From assembly GCA_025350705.1 (NCBI GenBank), contig JANXXH010000084.1, positions 1 to 45,569 on the forward strand: 45,569 nucleotides of DNA, given 5' to 3'. A model generated the notes under the pieces. The model was not told where the DNA came from and made no database searches. It saw nothing but the letters and a program-made list of their open reading frames with translations. Positions within the stretch are counted from its first letter, which is position 1, and each line of letters opens with the position of its first letter. Positions 2,296 through 39,971 of the stretch are shown piece after piece. The stretch is from Gallionella sp. (lineage in GTDB: Bacteria; Pseudomonadota; Gammaproteobacteria; Burkholderiales; Gallionellaceae). Both the position numbers and the translations under genes were made by a program.

Positions 2296-3750
2296 TTACA
2301 AACGTGGAATGTCGGGGAACGGCACTTGCCCGTGATGCACATGCATGCGGCCGAATTCCGCGCAGCGGTGAACGGTGGGAATCACCTTGCCGGGATTGAG
2401 CAGGCCGGACGGATCGAACGCCAGTTTCACTTCGCGGAATATCTGCAATTCCCCGGACTTGAATTGCGCACACATCTGGTTGATCTTCTCGATACCGACA
2501 CCGTGTTCGCCGGTGATGGTGCCGCCCACTTCCACGCACAACTCAAAAACTTTTCCGCCCAGTTCCTCGGCGCGATGCAATTCGCCGGGCCGGTTGGCAT
2601 CGTACAAGATCAATGGATGAAGATTGCCGTCACCGGCATGGAACACATTGGCGACCCGCAAGCCATATTCCTTGGACAACTCGTCGATGCGGCTCAGCAC
2701 GTGACTCAACTCGCGGCGCGGGATGGTGCCATCCATGCAGTAATAATCTGGTGAGAGACGACCCACAGCAGGGAAGGCGGCCTTGCGCCCGGCCCACAGC
2801 CTGAGTCTATCCGCTTCATTCGCCGAGGTGCGCAGCGAAGTCGCGCCGCAGCGCGAGAGTATCGTTTGCATCTTCGCGATCTCTTCGGCGACTTCTTCCG
2901 GCGTGCCGTCCGATTCGCACAACAGGATCGCTTCAGCGGCTAGCGGGTAACCGGCGTGAACAAAATCTTCCGCGGCCTTGATCGACAACTTGTCCATCAT
3001 TTCCAGACCGGCCGGGATGATGCCATCTGCGATGATCTCGCCGACTGCATTGCCCGCGTCAGCCACCGTGGCGAACGCGGCCATCACTACCTGGGCAAGT
3101 TCCGGCTTGGGCAGCAGCTTGACCGTCACCTCGGTGATCACGCCGAGCATGCCCTCGCTGCCGGTGAACAGCGCGAGCAGATCGTAGCCGGATGAATCCA
3201 GTGCCTCAGAACCTATCTCCAGCAGCTCGCCATCCATCGTGCAGGCGCGCAACTTGAGCACGTTGTGTACGGTGAGGCCGTACTTCAGGCAATGCACGCC
3301 ACCGGCGTTTTCTGCGACATTGCCGCCGATGGAACAAGCGATCTGGCTGGACGGATCGGGGGCGTAATACAGTCCGTGCGGCGCAGCCGCCTCGGAGATC
3401 GCGAGGTTGCGCACGCCGGGTTGCACGCGCGCGATGCGCGCGAGCGGATCGAGCGACAGGATGCGCTTGAACTTGGACAGGCTGAGCAGCACGCCGTCGG
3501 AGAGCGGCAGCGCACCGCCTGACAGACCTGTGCCTGCGCCGCGCGCGACCACCGCCACATTTTCGCGGCGGCACAGCAGCAGGATCTCGCGCACCTGCTG
3601 TTCGGTTTCGGGCAACGCAACGATCATCGGCACCTGACGGTAAGCCGACAGGCCGTCGCACTCGAAAGGCTTGAGGTCTTCCTGCTCGAACAGCACAGCT
3701 TCCGCCGGAAGAATCTCCAGCATCTGTTTTATCAGTTCATGCTTTTTCAT
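2296..3750 (-). CDS. glcD: Glycolate oxidase catalytic subunit GlcD
   Basis: FAD-linked subunit that oxidises glycolate to glyoxylate. 484 residues against about 499 in E. coli. The PCMH FAD-binding domain shows ARGAGTGLSGGALP near residue 70 and SQIACSIGGNVAENAGG near 135. The C-terminal FAD-oxidase domain has HAGDGNLHP and GTITGEHGVG and ends with LNPGKV. The ATG at 3750 is 21 nt after the aceB stop. It works with GlcE and GlcF; the glyoxylate formed is the substrate of the upstream malate synthase, so the operon forms a short pathway. Confidence 0.96.
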   Translation of the reverse strand: MKKHELIKQMLEILPAEAVLFEQEDLKPFECDGLSAYRQVPMIVALPETEQQVREILLLCRRENVAVVARGAGTGLSGGALPLSDGVLLSLSKFKRILSLDPLARIARVQPGVRNLAISEAAAPHGLYYAPDPSSQIACSIGGNVAENAGGVHCLKYGLTVHNVLKLRACTMDGELLEIGSEALDSSGYDLLALFTGSEGMLGVITEVTVKLLPKPELAQVVMAAFATVADAGNAVGEIIADGIIPAGLEMMDKLSIKAAEDFVHAGYPLAAEAILLCESDGTPEEVAEEIAKMQTILSRCGATSLRTSANEADRLRLWAGRKAAFPAVGRLSPDYYCMDGTIPRRELSHVLSRIDELSKEYGLRVANVFHAGDGNLHPLILYDANRPGELHRAEELGGKVFELCVEVGGTITGEHGVGIEKINQMCAQFKSGELQIFREVKLAFDPSGLLNPGKVIPTVHRCAEFGRMHVHHGQVPFPDIPRL

Positions 3751-3771
3751 GGTCGGCGCCGGAATAAAAAA

Positions 3772-5364
3772 TTATTCCATCACGTCATAACAATAATTAG
3801 TGAGGAATTCCACCATCGGTTCCTTGGCAAGCAACTCCTCGAACACTTTCGCAGCCTGCTGATAATTTCCCGCGACAAAGCGCTTTTCGCTCACTCCTGC
3901 GGTGATGCCGGCAAGTGCTGAGGGGATCGTCGCGCGCACCATCTCCAGCGTGACCTTGCGTCCGTCGTCCAGAACGCCGTGCGGGCTGTGTATCCACTGC
4001 CACACTTGCGAGCGGGAGATCTCTGCGGTGGCTGCATCTTCCATCAGATTATGTATCGGCACGCAGCCGGTGCCCGCCAGCCAGGCACCGAGGTAGGCGA
4101 TCGCCACCTCGATGTTGAAGTGCAGCCCCGTTTCGGTGATCGGGCCTTGCGGTTCGAATCTCAACAGGTCGGCAGCCGATGCCTTCACGTCTTCGCGTTT
4201 CTTGTTCAATTGATTCGGTGCGGGCATCAGCCGGTCGAACACTTCCTTCGCGAGAGGAACCAGTCCGGGGTGTGCCACCCAGGTGCCATCGTGTCCATCG
4301 CCCGCTTCGCGCTCCTTGTCGGCGCGCACTTTGGTCAGTGCCGCATCATTCGCAGCCGGGTCGTTCTTGATCGGTATCTGTGCCGCCATCCCGCCGATGG
4401 CATGTGCATTGCGGCGGTGACAGGTCTTGATCAACAACAGCGAATAGGCGCGCATGAAGGGTGAGGTCATGCTCACCAACCCGCGGTCGGCCAAAACGAA
4501 ATCAGGATTACGCGCAAACTTCTTGAAGCAGCTGAAGATGTAATCCCAGCGCCCGCAGTTCAATCCGGCCGAGTGCTCGCGCAGCTCGTAAAGAAATTCG
4601 TCCATCTCGAAAGCGGCGAGGATGGTCTCGATCAGCACCGTCGCCTTGACGGTGCCGCGCGGAATGCCGAGCCGTTCCTGGGCATGAATGAACACGTCAT
4701 TCCACAACCGGGCCTCGAGATAGCTTTCCATCTTGGGCAGATAAAAATACGGCGCGGTGCCGCGTGACAGCAAGGCCTTTGCATTGTGAAAAAAATACAG
4801 GCCGAAGTCGAACAGGCTGGCGGACACCGGCTTGCCGTCCACGGTCACATGCTTCTCTACCATGTGCCAACCGCGCGGGCGCATGAACATCACCGAGATT
4901 TTTTCATTCAACCGGTAGGTCTTGCCATCCGGGTTGACGTGCTTGATGGTGCGCGCGACCGCATCGCGCAAATTGATCTGCGCGTCGATCACGTTGAGCC
5001 AGGTCGGCGTCATCGAATCTTCCATATCCGCCATGTACACGCTCGCTCCGGCATTGAGTCCGTTGATCAGCATCTTTCGTTCCGCAGGGCCGGTCAATTC
5101 GACGCGTCGATCCAGCAGCTCGGCGGGCACCGGCGCGATGGTCCAATCGCTGTTGCGCACGTCAGCAGTCTCGTCCAGAAAGTCGGGCAACTTGCCTGCA
5201 TCCAGCTCGGCCTGACGCTGCACCCTGCGCTTGAGCAAAGATTGCCGCACGGGTTCGAACTTGCGTGCCAACTCGGCGATGAAGGCCAGCGCCTCATGAG
5301 TCAGGATGGCGTATTGCTCAGTCGTGAGAGGAGCCGTGATGTTGATGCCTGCGGGGTAATTCAT
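3772..5364 (-). CDS. aceB: Malate synthase A
   Basis: Condenses glyoxylate with acetyl-CoA to give malate. 530 residues, close to E. coli AceB (533). It shows the family signature REHSAGLNCGRWDYIF (about residues 255-270), the early motif MADMEDSMTPTW and the C-terminal catalytic region ending GVLDDGRKVT. No isocitrate lyase gene is visible in the window, so here the enzyme probably drains glyoxylate made from glycolate rather than serving a classical glyoxylate shunt; that role is inference from the operon. Spacing is 24 nt to hprA upstream and 21 nt to glcD downstream. Confidence 0.96.
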   Translation of the reverse strand: MNYPAGINITAPLTTEQYAILTHEALAFIAELARKFEPVRQSLLKRRVQRQAELDAGKLPDFLDETADVRNSDWTIAPVPAELLDRRVELTGPAERKMLINGLNAGASVYMADMEDSMTPTWLNVIDAQINLRDAVARTIKHVNPDGKTYRLNEKISVMFMRPRGWHMVEKHVTVDGKPVSASLFDFGLYFFHNAKALLSRGTAPYFYLPKMESYLEARLWNDVFIHAQERLGIPRGTVKATVLIETILAAFEMDEFLYELREHSAGLNCGRWDYIFSCFKKFARNPDFVLADRGLVSMTSPFMRAYSLLLIKTCHRRNAHAIGGMAAQIPIKNDPAANDAALTKVRADKEREAGDGHDGTWVAHPGLVPLAKEVFDRLMPAPNQLNKKREDVKASAADLLRFEPQGPITETGLHFNIEVAIAYLGAWLAGTGCVPIHNLMEDAATAEISRSQVWQWIHSPHGVLDDGRKVTLEMVRATIPSALAGITAGVSEKRFVAGNYQQAAKVFEELLAKEPMVEFLTNYCYDVME

Positions 5365-7538: not shown

Positions 7539-8296
7539 CAGTGTCCGGGCACGTTGTTCCATAAAAGTTTGTGCAGCTGGACTTGCAAACGAACCGGCAA
7601 ACGGTCACGCAATATCCATTCAGCCAACCGGGTAGCATCCAGCGTACCGTGCGCAGGCGAAAATAACACCGCGCATCTTTCAGCGAGATGATGTTGCTGC
7701 AGGATTTGTTTTGCCCATTGGTAATCTTTTTCGTCGCACAACACGAATTTTATTTCGTCATGCGGAGCCAATAGCGGCAAATTTTCCCAGCGATTTTTCG
7801 CCACTTCGCCGGATGCCGGAGCTTTGATGTCCACCACGCGCATCACACGTGCATCCACTTCGCTGATATCCAGTGCCCCGCCGGTTTCCAAAGACACTTC
7901 GTAACCTGCATCACATAAAGCGCGCAACAATGGCAGGCAATTTTTTTGCGCCAGCGGCTCACCGCCGGTGACGGTCACATAATGCGGGCTATATTCAGCA
8001 ACTCGCCTGAGAATGTCTCCCAGGCTCATATTTTCTCCACCTGTAAAAGCGTAAGTCGTGTCGCAATATGTGCATCGCAGCGGACAACCGGTCAAGCGAA
8101 TGAATGCCGTAGGCAAACCTACGCGACTGGTCTCGCCTTGCAGCGAATAAAAAATCTCGCTGATGCGCAGTTGCGACACGTTACTGGCGAAGTCAGCCGC
8201 TTGCGGGAGCAACTGCGAGGCCGCCCCTCCCGCACCAGAGGGTTCCACCCCACCGTCTCGGGGCGGCAGTTGCGCGTCTGAATTGGCTTGCGGCAT
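7538..8296 (-). CDS. queE: 7-carboxy-7-deazaguanine synthase QueE, with an unusual N-terminal extension
   Basis: Radical SAM enzyme that makes 7-carboxy-7-deazaguanine from carboxytetrahydropterin. The radical SAM cluster motif is CPLRCTYC, preceded by [29 protein letters not shown] follows, as in the family. The protein has 252 residues, whereas QueE is usually about 210-225. The excess is the first 40 or so residues ([16 protein letters not shown] through FASNVSQ), low in hydrophobics, encoded largely by a palindromic repeat at 8174-8256. Homology begins at [12 protein letters not shown]. No obvious internal start codon precedes that segment, so the extension is probably translated. It overlaps queC by one base. 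Confidence 0.93.
8174..8256 (-). repeat. Coding palindromic element, copy A (in queE)
   Basis: About 83 bp matching the element in ispE (37797-37878). The 36-bp 3' part (8174-8209) is identical at 33 of 36 positions. Internal inverted repeats are visible: TGCGGGAG with CTCCCGCA, and GCCGCCCC with GGGGCGGC. It is read in the same frame as the ispE copy (LLPQ, three residues, then ASNVS). Confidence 0.82.
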
Positions 8297-24654: not shown

Positions 24655-24673
24655 TTGAAATTCAAAACCGTGT

Positions 24674-24741
24674 CCACGAAAAGCACGAAAGACACGAAAA
24701 AAGGATTGTGGACAATTTCGTGCCTTTCGTGCTTTTCGTGG
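24674..24741. repeat. Large inverted repeat between ftsY and ftsE
   Basis: Two 26-bp arms (24674-24699 and 24716-24741) are complementary at 25 of 26 positions with a 16-bp spacer. Each arm is itself built from repeated CACGAAA units (CCACGAAAAGCACGAAAG is the beginning). It fills almost the whole 99-bp gap between two minus-strand genes, and could form a strong RNA hairpin between ftsY and ftsE or a cruciform in DNA. Confidence 0.92.
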
Positions 24742-24753
24742 ATAAATGTTTTT

Positions 24754-35399: not shown

Positions 35400-37148
35400 A
35401 TGTCCCAGTTCAAATACGTCCTGCTAGGCAGTTTGCTGCTTACCGCTTGTGCGCACGCCCCTGTAAACCAGACTTCGCAAGATGAAGCTGAAGATCAGGA
35501 CGGTACGGATCAGATTACCCAACCCGAGCCACAGGCAGAAGTGCCGCAGGGGTTGCCCAACATTGCGTTGAGCAAAGAGTTGCTCTATGAATTCCTGCTT
35601 TCCGAAATAGCCAGTCAGCGCGGAAACGATATGCTCGCCATTGAGGGAAGTGCGGATTTGGCAAAGAAAACGCGCGACCCGCGCCTTGCCATGCGTGCTG
35701 CGCACCTGGCGCTTCAATACGGCAAAGTCGACAAGGCTATCGAGGCACTCAGGGTTTGGCGTGACGCTGATCCGTCTTCGATCACCGCAAGACGCATGCT
35801 GTCCTCGGTATTGCTGCGCAGCGGCAAGCTCGACGCAGCCGGTGAGGAATTGGCTCAGTTGCTGAAAGCGGACGAAACCCATTCCGCACAGAACTTTATC
35901 CAGATATATCAAATGCTGGCCACCTATCCGGAGAAGGAAGCGGCGTTGAAGTTGTTGCGCGAGCTCGCGCAGCTCTATCCGCGTGCGGCTGAAGCTCATT
36001 GGGGGGTGGCGCAATTGGCGCTGGTATCCGGCGACGGTGAGCTTGCATTAAACGAGGTAAGACAAGCGCGCAACTTGCGTCCCGAGTGGGATACGGCAGC
36101 CTCATCGGAGGCGATAATATTGCAGAAGGATGCGCCGCAACAGGGTTTGGATGTATTGCGGAAATTTTTATCGAGCTATCCCGATGCGCGTGAAATCCGC
36201 TTGCAGTATGCACGCGCTTTGCTTGATCAAAAACAATACAAGCTGGCGCGTGACGAGTTCCAGCGTTTGGCGGACGAACATCCCGACAACCCGGACATGG
36301 CTTATGCCATCGCCTTGATCTCGTTGCAGTTGAACGATTTGAAGAATGCGGAGGCAGAACTCAAACTAGCGCTCAGTAAAGGCAAGAAAGATCCGGATAC
36401 GGTTCGGTATTACCTCGGGCAGCTGAGCGAGGCCAGGAAAAACGAAGACGAAGCAATCGCCAATTACCGCGAGGTAAAGGGTGGCGAATATCTCGTTGCC
36501 TCACAGATCCGCATCGCTTATCTGCTGAGCAAGCGCGGTCAACTTGCCGAAGCACGCCGACAGTTGCAGGAGGTGCAGGGCGCTGACAATCAGCAGCGTG
36601 CACAACTGGTGATGGTCGAGGCGCAATTATTGCGCGAAGCAAACCAATTCAACGAGGCCTATCAGGTATTGAATCAGTCTTTGGAAAAATTTCCCAATCA
36701 CACTGATCTGCTTTACGAAACCGCGATGATGGCCGACAAGATCGGCAAACCGGATTTGTTCGAGAAATTGATGCGCAAGCTGATCAAGATCAAACCCGAC
36801 CACGCGCAAGCCTACAATGCGCTGGGCTATGAATTGCTGGAGCGCAACGAGCGTATTCCGGAAGCGATGCAGTTGGTGGAAAAAGCCCTGCTGCTTGCGC
36901 CCGATGATGCGTCCATCATGGACAGCGTGGGCTGGGGTTACTATCGCAGCGGCAAGCTGGATGAGAGCGTGAAGATGTTGCGGCGCGCTTTTGCCGGCAA
37001 TGCCAATCCCGAAATTGCAGCGCACTTGGGTGAAGTGTTGTGGGTGCGCGGCGATAAAGAGGAAGCCAAAAAGATCTGGCAAAAAAGCCTCAAGGAAAAT
37101 TCCGGCAACGAGCAACTGCAAACAGTCATTAAAAAATTCGATCCCTGA
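35400..37148 (+). CDS. Tetratricopeptide-repeat lipoprotein (582 aa)
   Basis: The start at 35400 gives a lipoprotein signal (MSQFKYVLLGSLLLTACAHA, lipobox LLTAC, Cys17); the frame also opens at 35349, which would put 17 residues before the signal. After an acidic linker (DEAEDQDGTDQI) come about ten TPR-like repeats through to the C-terminus (for example YALGYELLERNERIPEAM-type and SVGWGYYRSGKLDESVKM units). Probably anchored to the outer membrane and facing the periplasm. Such a protein is usual upstream of lolB in beta-proteobacteria. Function unknown, possibly in envelope assembly. Confidence 0.88.
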   Translation: MSQFKYVLLGSLLLTACAHAPVNQTSQDEAEDQDGTDQITQPEPQAEVPQGLPNIALSKELLYEFLLSEIASQRGNDMLAIEGSADLAKKTRDPRLAMRAAHLALQYGKVDKAIEALRVWRDADPSSITARRMLSSVLLRSGKLDAAGEELAQLLKADETHSAQNFIQIYQMLATYPEKEAALKLLRELAQLYPRAAEAHWGVAQLALVSGDGELALNEVRQARNLRPEWDTAASSEAIILQKDAPQQGLDVLRKFLSSYPDAREIRLQYARALLDQKQYKLARDEFQRLADEHPDNPDMAYAIALISLQLNDLKNAEAELKLALSKGKKDPDTVRYYLGQLSEARKNEDEAIANYREVKGGEYLVASQIRIAYLLSKRGQLAEARRQLQEVQGADNQQRAQLVMVEAQLLREANQFNEAYQVLNQSLEKFPNHTDLLYETAMMADKIGKPDLFEKLMRKLIKIKPDHAQAYNALGYELLERNERIPEAMQLVEKALLLAPDDASIMDSVGWGYYRSGKLDESVKMLRRAFAGNANPEIAAHLGEVLWVRGDKEEAKKIWQKSLKENSGNEQLQTVIKKFDP

Positions 37149-37150
37149 TC

Positions 37151-37723
37151 ATGAGGTGGTGGCTGGTTTTTTTGGGGCTGACTTTATTGAACGGCTGCGC
37201 GTTACTGCCGTCCGCACACTCGCCGGTTGCAAGGCCCGCACAATCTGAAGTTGTACCTTTTGCATTGAACGGACGCGTCTCGATCAAGCATCTGGAAACG
37301 CGCAATTCCGCCGGGCTGCACTGGACGCATCAATCGCAGTCCGATGAGATCCTGCTGCTCAATCCGCTCGGGCAAACAGCTGCCCGAGTCTATCGCGACG
37401 ATGGAAATGCGACACTGGATACCGGCGACAAACATTATCAGGATGTCGATGCAGGATCGTTGATGGAACAGGTGTTGGGTTGGCATCTGCCGCTGAATGG
37501 TTTGCATCACTGGGCGCTTGGAATGGCAGACCCAGAAAGCCCCGCACAAATCGAACGCGCCGACAATGGCCAAATCTCTGTGCTGCATCAGGATGGCTGG
37601 GATGTGAGCTACCTTCGCTATGCCGACGGCAAGCCGGACAGCCTGCCGTCGCGTATACAGTTAAACCATGAAGACTTGCAAATACAATTACTGATCGACG
37701 AGTGGGAATGGAATCCGCAATGA
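37151..37723 (+). CDS. lolB: Outer-membrane lipoprotein receptor LolB
   Basis: Receives lipoproteins from LolA and inserts them into the outer membrane. 190 residues. Lipobox LNGC (Cys16) after MRWWLVFLGLTL. The body has FALNGRVSIKH, AGLHWTHQSQSDEILLLNPL and VLGWHLPLNGLHHWALG, all characteristic. It starts 2 nt after the TPR gene and its stop overlaps the ispE start (ATGA). Confidence 0.95.
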   Translation: MRWWLVFLGLTLLNGCALLPSAHSPVARPAQSEVVPFALNGRVSIKHLETRNSAGLHWTHQSQSDEILLLNPLGQTAARVYRDDGNATLDTGDKHYQDVDAGSLMEQVLGWHLPLNGLHHWALGMADPESPAQIERADNGQISVLHQDGWDVSYLRYADGKPDSLPSRIQLNHEDLQIQLLIDEWEWNPQ

Positions 37724-38688
37724 CACTCACCTGCCCTGCTCCGGCAAAATTGAATCTGTTCCTCCATGTCGTCGGGCGCAAACCGGGCGGTATGACACGG
37801 TGCGCGCAAGCGTCCAGTGCGGGAATGCCGCCCCCCCGCCTCCTCCCGCAATCGGCTGGCTCCGCCAGTAACGTGTCGGAGGCGGACGGCTATCACCTGC
37901 TGCAAACCCTGTTCCGCTTCATCGATCTGCACGACACACTGCACTTCAGCCTGCGCGAAGACGGCGCAGTGCATCGCACCAATGCCGTTGAGGGCGTGGC
38001 CGAAGAGCAGGATTTATGCGTGCGCGCTGCGCGTCTGCTGCAAAGCGAGACCGGATGCGGCTTGGGCGTGGATATCACCGTTGAAAAACGCATCCCGATG
38101 GGCGGCGGCCTGGGCGGCGGCAGCTCGGATGCGGCTACCACGCTGATCGCGCTGAATCGTCTGTGGTCATTGGGTTTGTCACGTGCCCGCTTGATGCAGC
38201 TAGGCTTGCAACTGGGCGCCGATGTGCCGGTATTTGTGTTTGGTGAAAATGCGTTCGCCGAAGGGGTAGGCGAAGAGCTACAGGCCTATCCCTTGGCGGA
38301 GGCGTGGTACGTGGTGTTATTCCCCCCGGTGCATGTGCCGACAGCCCAGATTTTTGCTCACCCGGAATTGACACGCGATACGGTTTCCATCACAATGCGC
38401 GCCCTTTTGGAACAGCAATCTGGTTCCGGGCACTATCGCGAAGGGCAGCAACTTCGCAACGATCTGCAACCTTTGGTGTGCAAGCTCTACCCGGAAGTGG
38501 CGCGTTATATAGCCTGGCTTGAAAAATACGGCAAAGCGATGATGACTGGCTCGGGTGCTTGCGTGTTCGCCGAGTTTGGCAGCTGCAGCCAAGCTGAAGC
38601 AGTTTTAATTGATTTACCCCGCGAAATGCGCGGCGTTGTAGCACAAGGTTTAGCAAGGCATCCGTTGCATGATTGGATGTCTGATTGA
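37720..38688 (+). CDS. ispE: 4-diphosphocytidyl-2-C-methyl-D-erythritol kinase IspE with a 33-residue insert
   Basis: GHMP kinase of the non-mevalonate isoprenoid pathway. The ATG at 37720 overlaps the lolB stop. Family motifs: PAPAKLNLFLHVVGRK, ADGYHLLQTLFRFIDLHD, the phosphate loop PMGGGLGGGSSDAATTL and the final TGSGACVFAEF. 322 residues against 283 in E. coli. Normally GR(x)ADGYH is continuous; here residues 22-54 (37783-37881) are inserted between GRK and ADGYH, and 82 bp of it is the palindromic element shared with queE. The frame is kept and the downstream motifs are intact, so the enzyme is probably functional. Confidence 0.95.
   Translation: MTLTCPAPAKLNLFLHVVGRKPGGMTRCAQASSAGMPPPRLLPQSAGSASNVSEADGYHLLQTLFRFIDLHDTLHFSLREDGAVHRTNAVEGVAEEQDLCVRAARLLQSETGCGLGVDITVEKRIPMGGGLGGGSSDAATTLIALNRLWSLGLSRARLMQLGLQLGADVPVFVFGENAFAEGVGEELQAYPLAEAWYVVLFPPVHVPTAQIFAHPELTRDTVSITMRALLEQQSGSGHYREGQQLRNDLQPLVCKLYPEVARYIAWLEKYGKAMMTGSGACVFAEFGSCSQAEAVLIDLPREMRGVVAQGLARHPLHDWMSD
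37797..37878 (+). repeat. Coding palindromic element, copy B (inside ispE)
   Basis: About 82 bp, starting ACGGTG and ending GTAACGTGTCG. The last 36 bp match copy A in queE at 33 of 36 positions and are read in the same frame (LLPQ, three residues, ASNVS). TGCGGGA and TCCCGCA form an inverted pair as in copy A. The middle part is C-rich here (CCGCCCCCCCGCC) and differs from copy A. Confidence 0.85.
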
Positions 38689-38719
38689 GTTTGATACATG
38701 GTGGCAGAAATCGTAGCGA

Positions 38720-38815
38720 GCGGTTTCGGGGCGGGTTCGGACAGCGCACAGCGACCGGAGCATACACAGAGTATGTGAGGATCGCGAGCACTGCCCGAGC
38801 CCGCCCCGGAATCGC
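38720..38815. repeat. Large imperfect palindrome between ispE and tRNA-Gln
   Basis: Arms of 25 bp (38720-38744 and 38791-38815) match at 21 of 25 positions, all differences being transitions that leave G-U pairs in one strand. The centre holds a second small hairpin CATAC-ACAGA-GTATG. The element looks like a dispersed intergenic repeat. A further small hairpin GGTTGGC/GCCAACC lies at 38832-38852. The 214-bp gap contains no gene. Confidence 0.88.
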
Positions 38816-38902
38816 GCATAACCAGTGACTTGGTTGGCGTCGTTTGCCAACCTAGTCAAATGGCTAGTAGTTTCATCAGTAGATTAATGCCGCTATGTCA
38901 GA

Positions 38903-38977
38903 TGGGGAGTCGCCAAGTGGTAAGGCACCGGATTTTGATTCCGGCATTCGTAGGTTCGATCCCTACCTCCCCAGCCA
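38903..38977 (+). tRNA. tRNA-Gln(UUG)
   Basis: Plus-strand cloverleaf of 75 nt including encoded CCA. The acceptor TGGGGAG pairs with CTCCCCA and the discriminator is G, as in tRNA-Gln. The anticodon loop TTTTGAT gives TTG for CAA/CAG. The T arm is GTTCGATC. Position between ispE and prs is the standard beta-proteobacterial arrangement. Confidence 0.97.
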
Positions 38978-39020
38978 GATTTATGGGCGTATGCCCTGTT
39001 GTTATATTGAAAGGTCGCAC

Positions 39021-39971
39021 GTGTCCTACGACAGCTTGATGGTGTTCACCGGCAATGCCAATCCTAAGCTCGCTGAAGCAGTCGCGCGGCATTTGCACAT
39101 TCAACTCGGACGCGCCAAGGTTGGGCGTTTTTCCGACGGCGAAGTGATGGTCGAGCTGCTTGAGAATGTGCGCGGCCGGGATGTGTTCATACTGCAATCG
39201 ACTTGTGCGCCGACCAATGACAATTTAATGGAAGTGCTAGTGATGGTGGACGCATTGAAACGCGCATCTGCCGGACGTATCACCGCCGCGATGCCGTATT
39301 TCGGCTACGCGCGCCAGGATAGGCGACCGCGCTCGGCGCGTGTCGCGATCACGGCAAAACTGGTTGCGGACATGTTGAGCAGCGCAGGTGTGGATCGTTT
39401 GTTGACGATGGATCTGCACTCCGACCAGATACAGGGATTTTTTGATATTCCGGTGGACAACATCTATGCAAGCCCGATCTTGTTGTCCGATGTGTGGAAG
39501 CACAATTATCCGAATTTGATCGTGGTATCGCCGGACGTGGGTGGCGTGGTACGTGCCCGCGCACTGGCCAAGGAACTGGATGCGGATCTGGCGATCATCG
39601 ACAAGCGCCGTCCCAAGCCGAATGTGGCGAAGGTGATGAACATCATCGGCGAAGTGGCAGGACGCACTTGCCTGATCATGGATGACATGGTGGATACCGC
39701 CAACACGCTGTGCGAAGCCGCCAACGCGTTGAAGGAAAAAGGTGCTACTCGCGTGTTGGCCTATTGTACCCACCCGGTACTGTCCGGCCCGGCGATCGAG
39801 CGCATCGAGAAATCCGCGATGGACGAGTTGGTAGTCACCGACACCATCCCATTGAGCGAAGCGGCGCGCAAGTGCAAGCGCATCCGCCAACTGAGCACGG
39901 CAGAATTGCTGGCGGAAACGATACGCCGCATCAACAACGAAGAATCGGTAAGTTCGCTGTTCGCCGAATAA
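39021..39971 (+). CDS. prs: Ribose-phosphate pyrophosphokinase
   Basis: Makes PRPP from ribose 5-phosphate and ATP. I chose GTG at 39021 with AAAGG 6 nt upstream; it gives 316 residues ([20 protein letters not shown]), the family length. The reading frame upstream runs through tRNA-Gln and is not coding. Motifs: [56 protein letters not shown] and the PRPP-binding [14 protein letters not shown]. Confidence 0.97.

Follow-up and report, generated by a model that had tools for sequence, protein, structure and literature searches.

The best-known in-frame palindromic inserts in conserved genes are those of Rickettsia, and more cases have been described in other bacteria (excerpts of PMC3733652 and PMC2229807). 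The Rickettsia palindromic elements (RPE) are short palindromic repeats of 105-146 or ~150 bp, found in frame in conserved protein genes (excerpts of PMC10969869 and PMC2229807). The CGTC-tagged REP dimers, which include RPE-4, RPE-6, and Neisseria dRS3, are described in the accessible parts of PMC3733652 as inverted hairpins with intragenic copies and no dedicated transposase. Each CGTC repeat has a CGTC (or TGTC, CCTC) tag, an 8-9-bp stem starting with AT pairs, a 4-5-nt loop, and mostly a CCA tail, and the dimers of H. neapolitanus lie within 41-bp palindromes (same parts of PMC3733652). Palindromic inserts also occur in many protein genes of Magnusiomyces mitochondria, where these bypassed elements are skipped in translation (excerpt of PMC6649704).

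The window, i.e., the whole 45,569-nt stretch of the Gallionella sp. contig JANXXH010000084.1 that was analyzed, contains an ispE gene carrying an in-frame insert (Table 1). The ORF was assigned to IspE by TIGR00154 (261.8 bits, cut-off 138.7); its start was chosen by eye from relatives, and the ORF list begins at a GTG at 37702. IspE was present in all 60 family genomes searched, the own genome included, and 30 ispE loci were fetched, 29 of them from relatives. The IspE of the window reads GRKP-(33 codons)-DGYH, and the relatives read GRR-(P/A/D/S/E)-DGYH, with no insert in any of the 29 family members in which the site was read (L026-L054). The palindromic insert reported in the preliminary description is real, and the alignment of IspE across relatives, proposed there as a check, showed that it is not universal. 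Comparison with GRRPDGYH congeners placed its borders with an ambiguity of 1 nt, so the previous placement at 37783-37881 had the right length but lay about 3 nt too far to the left. The identical site was filled in two other named MAG contigs (L150 and L175). In L175, the IspE gene (3500-4669, minus strand) carries two tandem elements, one with a second repeat nested in it, and reading from close to its start gives a frame of 390 aa. On the E. coli IspE structure (1oj4), the insert site mapped immediately before the DGYH motif. An AlphaFold2 model of IspE with the insert (three-sequence alignment) had a mean pLDDT of 34.3, which was too poor for use.

Table 1. Features of the ispE locus and of the queE copy in the window.
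Feature	Position	Strand	Evidence
ispE coding sequence with insert	37720..38688	+	TIGR00154 above cut-off; ORF list
Whole in-frame insert, 99 bp = 33 codons	37786..37884	+	Missing in 29 of 29 relatives; own-genome family search
Arm X (GGCGGTAT), pairs with first spacer part	37786..37793	+	Own-arm pairing; paired in RNA fold
Unit A, 31 nt, GACACGG...GCGGGA	37794..37824	+	Pattern scan
Spacer, X' then Y, inverted copy of flanking arms	37825..37843	+	Arm/spacer comparison
Unit A', 34 nt (TCCCGCAATCGGCTGGCTCCGCCAGTAACGTGTC), inverted partner of A	37844..37877	+	Pattern scan, 0 mismatches
Arm Y' (GGAGGCGG), pairs with second spacer part; continues into host sequence	37878..37885	+	Arm/spacer comparison; RNA fold
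Second copy, near queE start	8167..8267	-	QueE by TIGR04349 above cut-off
queE copy, Y'	8167..8174		
queE copy, A'	8175..8208		
queE copy, spacer	8209..8227		
queE copy, A	8228..8259		
queE copy, X	8260..8267		

Copies of the element were collected by unit A', which gave 132 distinct copies in the loci fetched by then; unit A was recognizable in 101 and not in 31. The element consists of the inverted units A (30-32 nt) and A' (34 nt) around a spacer (18-19 nt in 100 of 101 copies) that inversely copies the flanking arms: the spacer start complements the arm left of A (X), and the spacer end complements the arm right of A' (Y'). The full layout is host-core-X / A / X'-n-Y / A' / Y'-core-host, in which the spacer X'-n-Y is an inverted copy of the joined ends Y'-core-X. 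The family is palindromic, as had been described, but not a simple palindrome. The distance from A to A' was 83-85 bp in 100 of 101 copies. Most copies are 99 or 102 bp long, and they may be tandem or nested; the tandem copies in L143 and L204 are spaced 99 bp apart. In being short, non-autonomous (too short for a gene), and ended by inverted repeats (A/A'), the element resembles a MITE. In the phosphoglucomutase copy of L010, the A half appeared by eye to be inverted in place, as if the X-X' segment had flipped.

The arms of each copy paired with their own spacer better than with swapped ones: 7.65 vs 4.81 of 8 positions for X/X' and 7.13 vs 4.78 for Y/Y', and the match of left to right flank was 6.17 vs 4.80 (0 of 2000 permutations each). 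These values are from 69 copies, obtained from 98 by removing those with similar outer flanks, with tandem neighbors still included. Perfect stems (8/8) were found for X in 70 and for Y in 65 of 101 copies. The 69 copies carried 36 different X and 26 different Y' eight-mers, so a single conserved stem does not account for the pairing.

In the own genome, the element family is far above chance: the exact A-unit pattern (GACACGG-N14-22-GCGGGA) had 16 matches and its reversed control 0, A' had 10 matches at ≤3 mismatches (control 0), and the element search gave 24 matches, 17 with E < 1e-4. The copy in queE, claimed previously, was recovered (62 bp at 79%, E 1.0e-8). Within the genus, 66 of 76 genomes (own included) matched a composite copy, which is an upper bound for the element because the composite query also contains a second repeat. 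At least 116 stretches with the exact A' pattern were found in named genomes. Among the 80 matches listed, 72 had titles naming Gallionella, Sideroxydans, Ferrigenium, Gallionellaceae, Gallionellales, or Nitrosomonadales, and eight carried other or wider names (e.g., Sulfuricaulis, Gammaproteobacteria), possibly through misbinning. Order-wide, A' (≤3 mismatches) was present in 8 of 399 genomes, namely the own genome, one congener, and six genomes of five other families, and it was not found in eleven further family members of that sample. Further copies are thus numerous in this and other genomes, a point the preliminary description had marked for checking, and the family is present in many genomes of the Gallionellaceae, with sparse occurrences elsewhere in the order. 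By eye, the copies of one genome from another family (G159) have the layout described here, with stems that differ from those here but are alike among themselves. Four viral contigs (L308-L311) each had a copy right before an ATG (by eye), with the same surrounding sequence in three.

The second repeat (TAACCAGCGACTTGG...ATCA, ~60 bp) was seen in L007, L014, and L175 and was covered by roughly 30 of 51 matches (40 of 71 candidates scored). At other loci, this repeat sits inside unit A' between GCCA and GTAAC, and in gltD and one ispE it is also in frame, at ~20 codons. Downstream of the ispE of the window, positions 38818-38880 (plus strand) resemble it by eye, although this stretch was not among the listed matches. 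A palindromic stretch just after ispE (38703-38776, minus strand) matched Rfam sX9 below threshold (36 bits against a gathering cut-off of 44), and the flank of some element copies (AATCGTAGCGAG) also starts this stretch (by eye). An inverted repeat at 24673-24742, with 27-nt arms that are 96% complementary and 16 nt apart, is unlike the element by eye.

A query of joined host flanks located ten genes and hisF in three congeners, and the insert was missing at all sites read (queE in two). When the flanks of every copy were aligned to all fetched loci, they were placed on element-free loci 97 times; they overlapped by 11-22 nt in 78 placements and scattered from -53 to +135 in 19. With an overlap of 5-30 nt required and contexts containing GACACGG or CGTGTC dropped, 34 copies had an empty counterpart, of which 22 were non-redundant. 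The implied insert length was 99 bp at 11 and 102 bp at six of these sites (together 17 of 22), 96 bp at one, and 98, 98, 101, and 106 bp at four. It was a multiple of three at all 15 sites clearly inside an ORF. Among the seven other sites, it was a multiple of three at L126, L162, and L198, and not at L172, at L165 and L190 (hisF end), or at L214 near the queE start, where 102 bp was obtained against another relative.

The boundary between element and host was profiled at 21 sites, L190 being dropped as the same site as L165. The empty sites are from diverged relatives (flanks 75-90% identical), not sister strains. Along T, whose boundaries were extrapolated from the flank alignments, the left flank equaled the empty site at fractions of 0.70, 0.72, 0.65, 0.42, and 0.28, and the right flank at 0.43, 0.60, 0.73, 0.78, and 0.79. 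The host side was above the element side at 19 sites, equal at one, and opposite at one (Wilcoxon p 0.00016). The longest run common to the two flanks and the empty site averaged 3.38 vs 1.67 with swapped sites (0 of 2000), and at eight of the 21 sites the shared core was a mere 1-2 nt. This profile pictures a crossing or a short duplication at a core of few bases, with the outer arms belonging to the element. The reading of X and Y' as wholly host sequence (a 14-18-bp target duplication) was replaced, since the cross-over profile shows the middle alone as shared.

The spacer matched its own empty site better than others (6.32 vs 4.47, 0 of 5000), and this was also the case within three subtypes that we distinguished by the bases with which the spacer begins (0 of 10000). 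Target preference of the subtypes cannot explain the match within subtypes; later co-evolution of spacer and core could. Relatives without the insert had GAGGTGCGRCTRTGA at the hisF end (3 of 3), GCGCAAYTGC at queE (2 of 2), and GAAGGTGC at the Rep helicase gene (2 of 3), each matching part of the spacer found there.

Of the 132 copies, 74 lay clearly within a single long ORF, 16 were ambiguous, eight lay at an edge, and 34 had no long ORF. A long ORF had to have ≥200 codons, to be 1.4 times as long as the next frame, and to extend 20 codons to either side of the copy; among the 74 copies, several are orthologs or occupy the same ORF. Sense copies used frame 1 in 47 of 48 cases (peptide like LLPQSAGSASNVS) and another frame once, and antisense copies used frame 0 in 18 of 26 cases (peptide like DTLLAEPADCGS) and other frames in eight, which puts 65 of the 74 in just two frames. 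These data support insertion in frame into protein genes, among them essential ones, with one frame favored. For the 59 complete intragenic copies, the use expected from stop-free frames was 13.6 for sense 1, 13.7 for antisense 0, and 10.9, 13.1, and 7.7 for the others; the use seen was 37, 15, 5, 1, and 1, in the same order, so the antisense excess was small. A frame bias from stop codons alone was ruled out for sense copies because the other frames are often open.

When 20 host ORFs were scanned, 19 matched NCBIfam. ArgS, HrpA, QueE, Pgm, DapF, MurG, TrpE, and a YhdH-type reductase were above the curated cut-off. Cut or interrupted fragments stayed below it, namely Rep helicase, oligopeptidase A, HemD, AceE, GltD, MsbA, BioF, YhdP, a second HrpA site, an acyl-CoA ligase, and a relative of RNase II. 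RelA, CdsA, HisF, and LigA were named by us from their sequence.

As RNA, the ispE copy folded into two adjacent hairpins (z -2.48); as DNA, its fold was no stronger than that of shuffles (z -0.87 and -0.33). Rfam gave three matches over 37000-39500 (a tRNA, the sub-threshold sX9, and a sub-threshold ycf2 on the tRNA), none of them on the insert. Changes in the stems were counted in 21 orthologous pairs (378 stem positions). Nine changes were two-sided, where simple multiplication would predict about 1.4, and eight of the nine were exactly compensating; 28 were one-sided (11 outer, 17 inner); because pairs share copies (three come from one MurG-type site), the events are fewer than these counts. 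The stems thus change in step, yet they also decay.

We regard the chances as even that this is a non-autonomous palindromic mobile element of ~99 or 102 bp that can fold into a dumbbell and enters the chromosome by crossing at a short core that it has in common with the target. The element would be excised or copied as a single strand and would close into a dumbbell, with A and A' as loops and with the joined ends and their inverted copy as a duplex arm of 14-18 bp. This arm would be the recombination site and would cross with a chromosomal site sharing a core of ~4-6 nt, which would be left on both sides. In integron attC and CTX-phage attP, the arm of a single-strand hairpin is likewise a recombination site with a short core. 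Crossing of the arm with a core-sharing host site would yield the flanks seen, good stems in newborn copies, a near-fixed length, and 99-bp tandem arrays. The multiple of three would be maintained by selection, gene-breaking copies being lost, and the stems may later be maintained or repaired jointly, through template switching from one arm to the other or through selection. Against the dumbbell stand the DNA fold of the ispE copy, the sites with a 1-2-nt core, which an ordinary transposase with a short duplication also fits, and the excess of one-sided over compensating stem changes. A linked recombinase was not found, and no parent transposon with the same ends was present at nine loci of further A units in the own genome. 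It is doubtful, in our judgment, that the element is self-guided, gene-less mobile DNA, that is, a single-stranded dumbbell of 99-102 nt that would find its target by base pairing, with its sole duplex arm as both joined ends and core selector and its centre as a record of the insertion site.

The main rival is a conventional MITE, mobilized by an unknown DDE transposase that duplicates ~5 bp of the target; X and Y' would then be the element's own ends, and the stems would be kept solely by template switching (quasipalindrome correction) or by selection on an mRNA hairpin. This is possible, if somewhat unlikely: the cross-over flank profile is compatible with a short duplication, the compensating changes in orthologous copies indicate stems changing in step after insertion, and template switching has been reported to generate and repair hairpins (excerpt of PMC8794818). 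Own ends alone would not give a spacer that matches the host site of uninserted relatives, also within a subtype, and no transposase was linked; as one-sided change is commoner than compensation, perfect stems in about two thirds of the copies are difficult to explain solely by later correction. The match of spacer and empty site, together with the uninserted hisF, queE, and Rep helicase sites, would also suit a spacer that acts as a guide, pairing as RNA or single-stranded DNA with the target and picking the site. We consider this unlikely, as the match is mostly mid-T, the outer arm parts are element and not host, and the Rfam matches around ispE lie off the insert; we know of no guide RNA or partner protein for such an insertion of the element. 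A REP dimer (REPIN) mobilized by a RAYT/Y1 tyrosine transposase seems very improbable. GTAG and CGTC repeats are known to form short inverted hairpin dimers, with copies inside genes (excerpt of PMC3733652), and PF01797 was found in 63 of 76 genomes of the genus, with one weak match in the own genome. However, PF01797 was also present in nine of the ten genomes without a composite-query match, G070 (83% complete) and G118 matched across unit A without a PF01797 match, neither A nor A' was found at any of 30 fetched Y1 loci, and by inspection the ends of A and A' lack the GTAG tag. The Y1/RAYT transposase was rejected as mobilizer because its presence does not track the element and no Y1 locus carries the units.

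With more than 100 copies on record, this widespread group of iron oxidizers offers enough empty and filled sites to compute the insertion rule. A centre that is complementary to the element's own ends and matches the target suggests a mechanism that the literature searched does not connect with such elements, and the own-end complementarity is a lead on how the element picks its sites. The copies are also natural experiments on how IspE, ArgS, MurG, or DapF tolerate an insert of ~33 residues. For annotation and structure prediction, the insert is a trap.

The preliminary description held that no such family had been described for this group. S. lithotrophicus, which we take to be Sideroxydans lithotrophicus, bears on this statement. 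This species is counted as CGTC-positive in the accessible text of PMC3733652, which limits the statement, as its CGTC family may overlap with the one described here; the statement stands insofar as our searches of open PMC papers gave no description of the present element. Like the CGTC dimers of that text, the element is a dimer of inverted hairpins with intragenic copies and no dedicated transposase found. It differs in an internal stem of 5-6 bp whose loop is 3 nt long and in a consensus without such a tag or tail, and by inspection neither A nor A' fits the text definition of a CGTC repeat in the excerpt of PMC3733652, the S. lithotrophicus consensus not being part of this comparison. The proposed dumbbell arm would resemble attC and attP as a folded single-strand site with a short core. 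Palindromic inserts in many protein genes are shared with Magnusiomyces mitochondria (excerpt of PMC6649704), but those are skipped in translation, whereas the insert here is an open frame of a length divisible by three, which makes skipping unnecessary. The parallel with RPE, already drawn in the preliminary description, is close: a palindromic repeat lies in frame, with a preferred frame, in unrelated conserved genes whose relatives are free of it (ten genes and hisF). Compared by description only, the element differs from RPE in its spacer of inverted ends, its near-constant 99 or 102 bp, and its 99-bp tandem arrays, which are not mentioned for RPE in the excerpts of PMC10969869 and PMC2229807.
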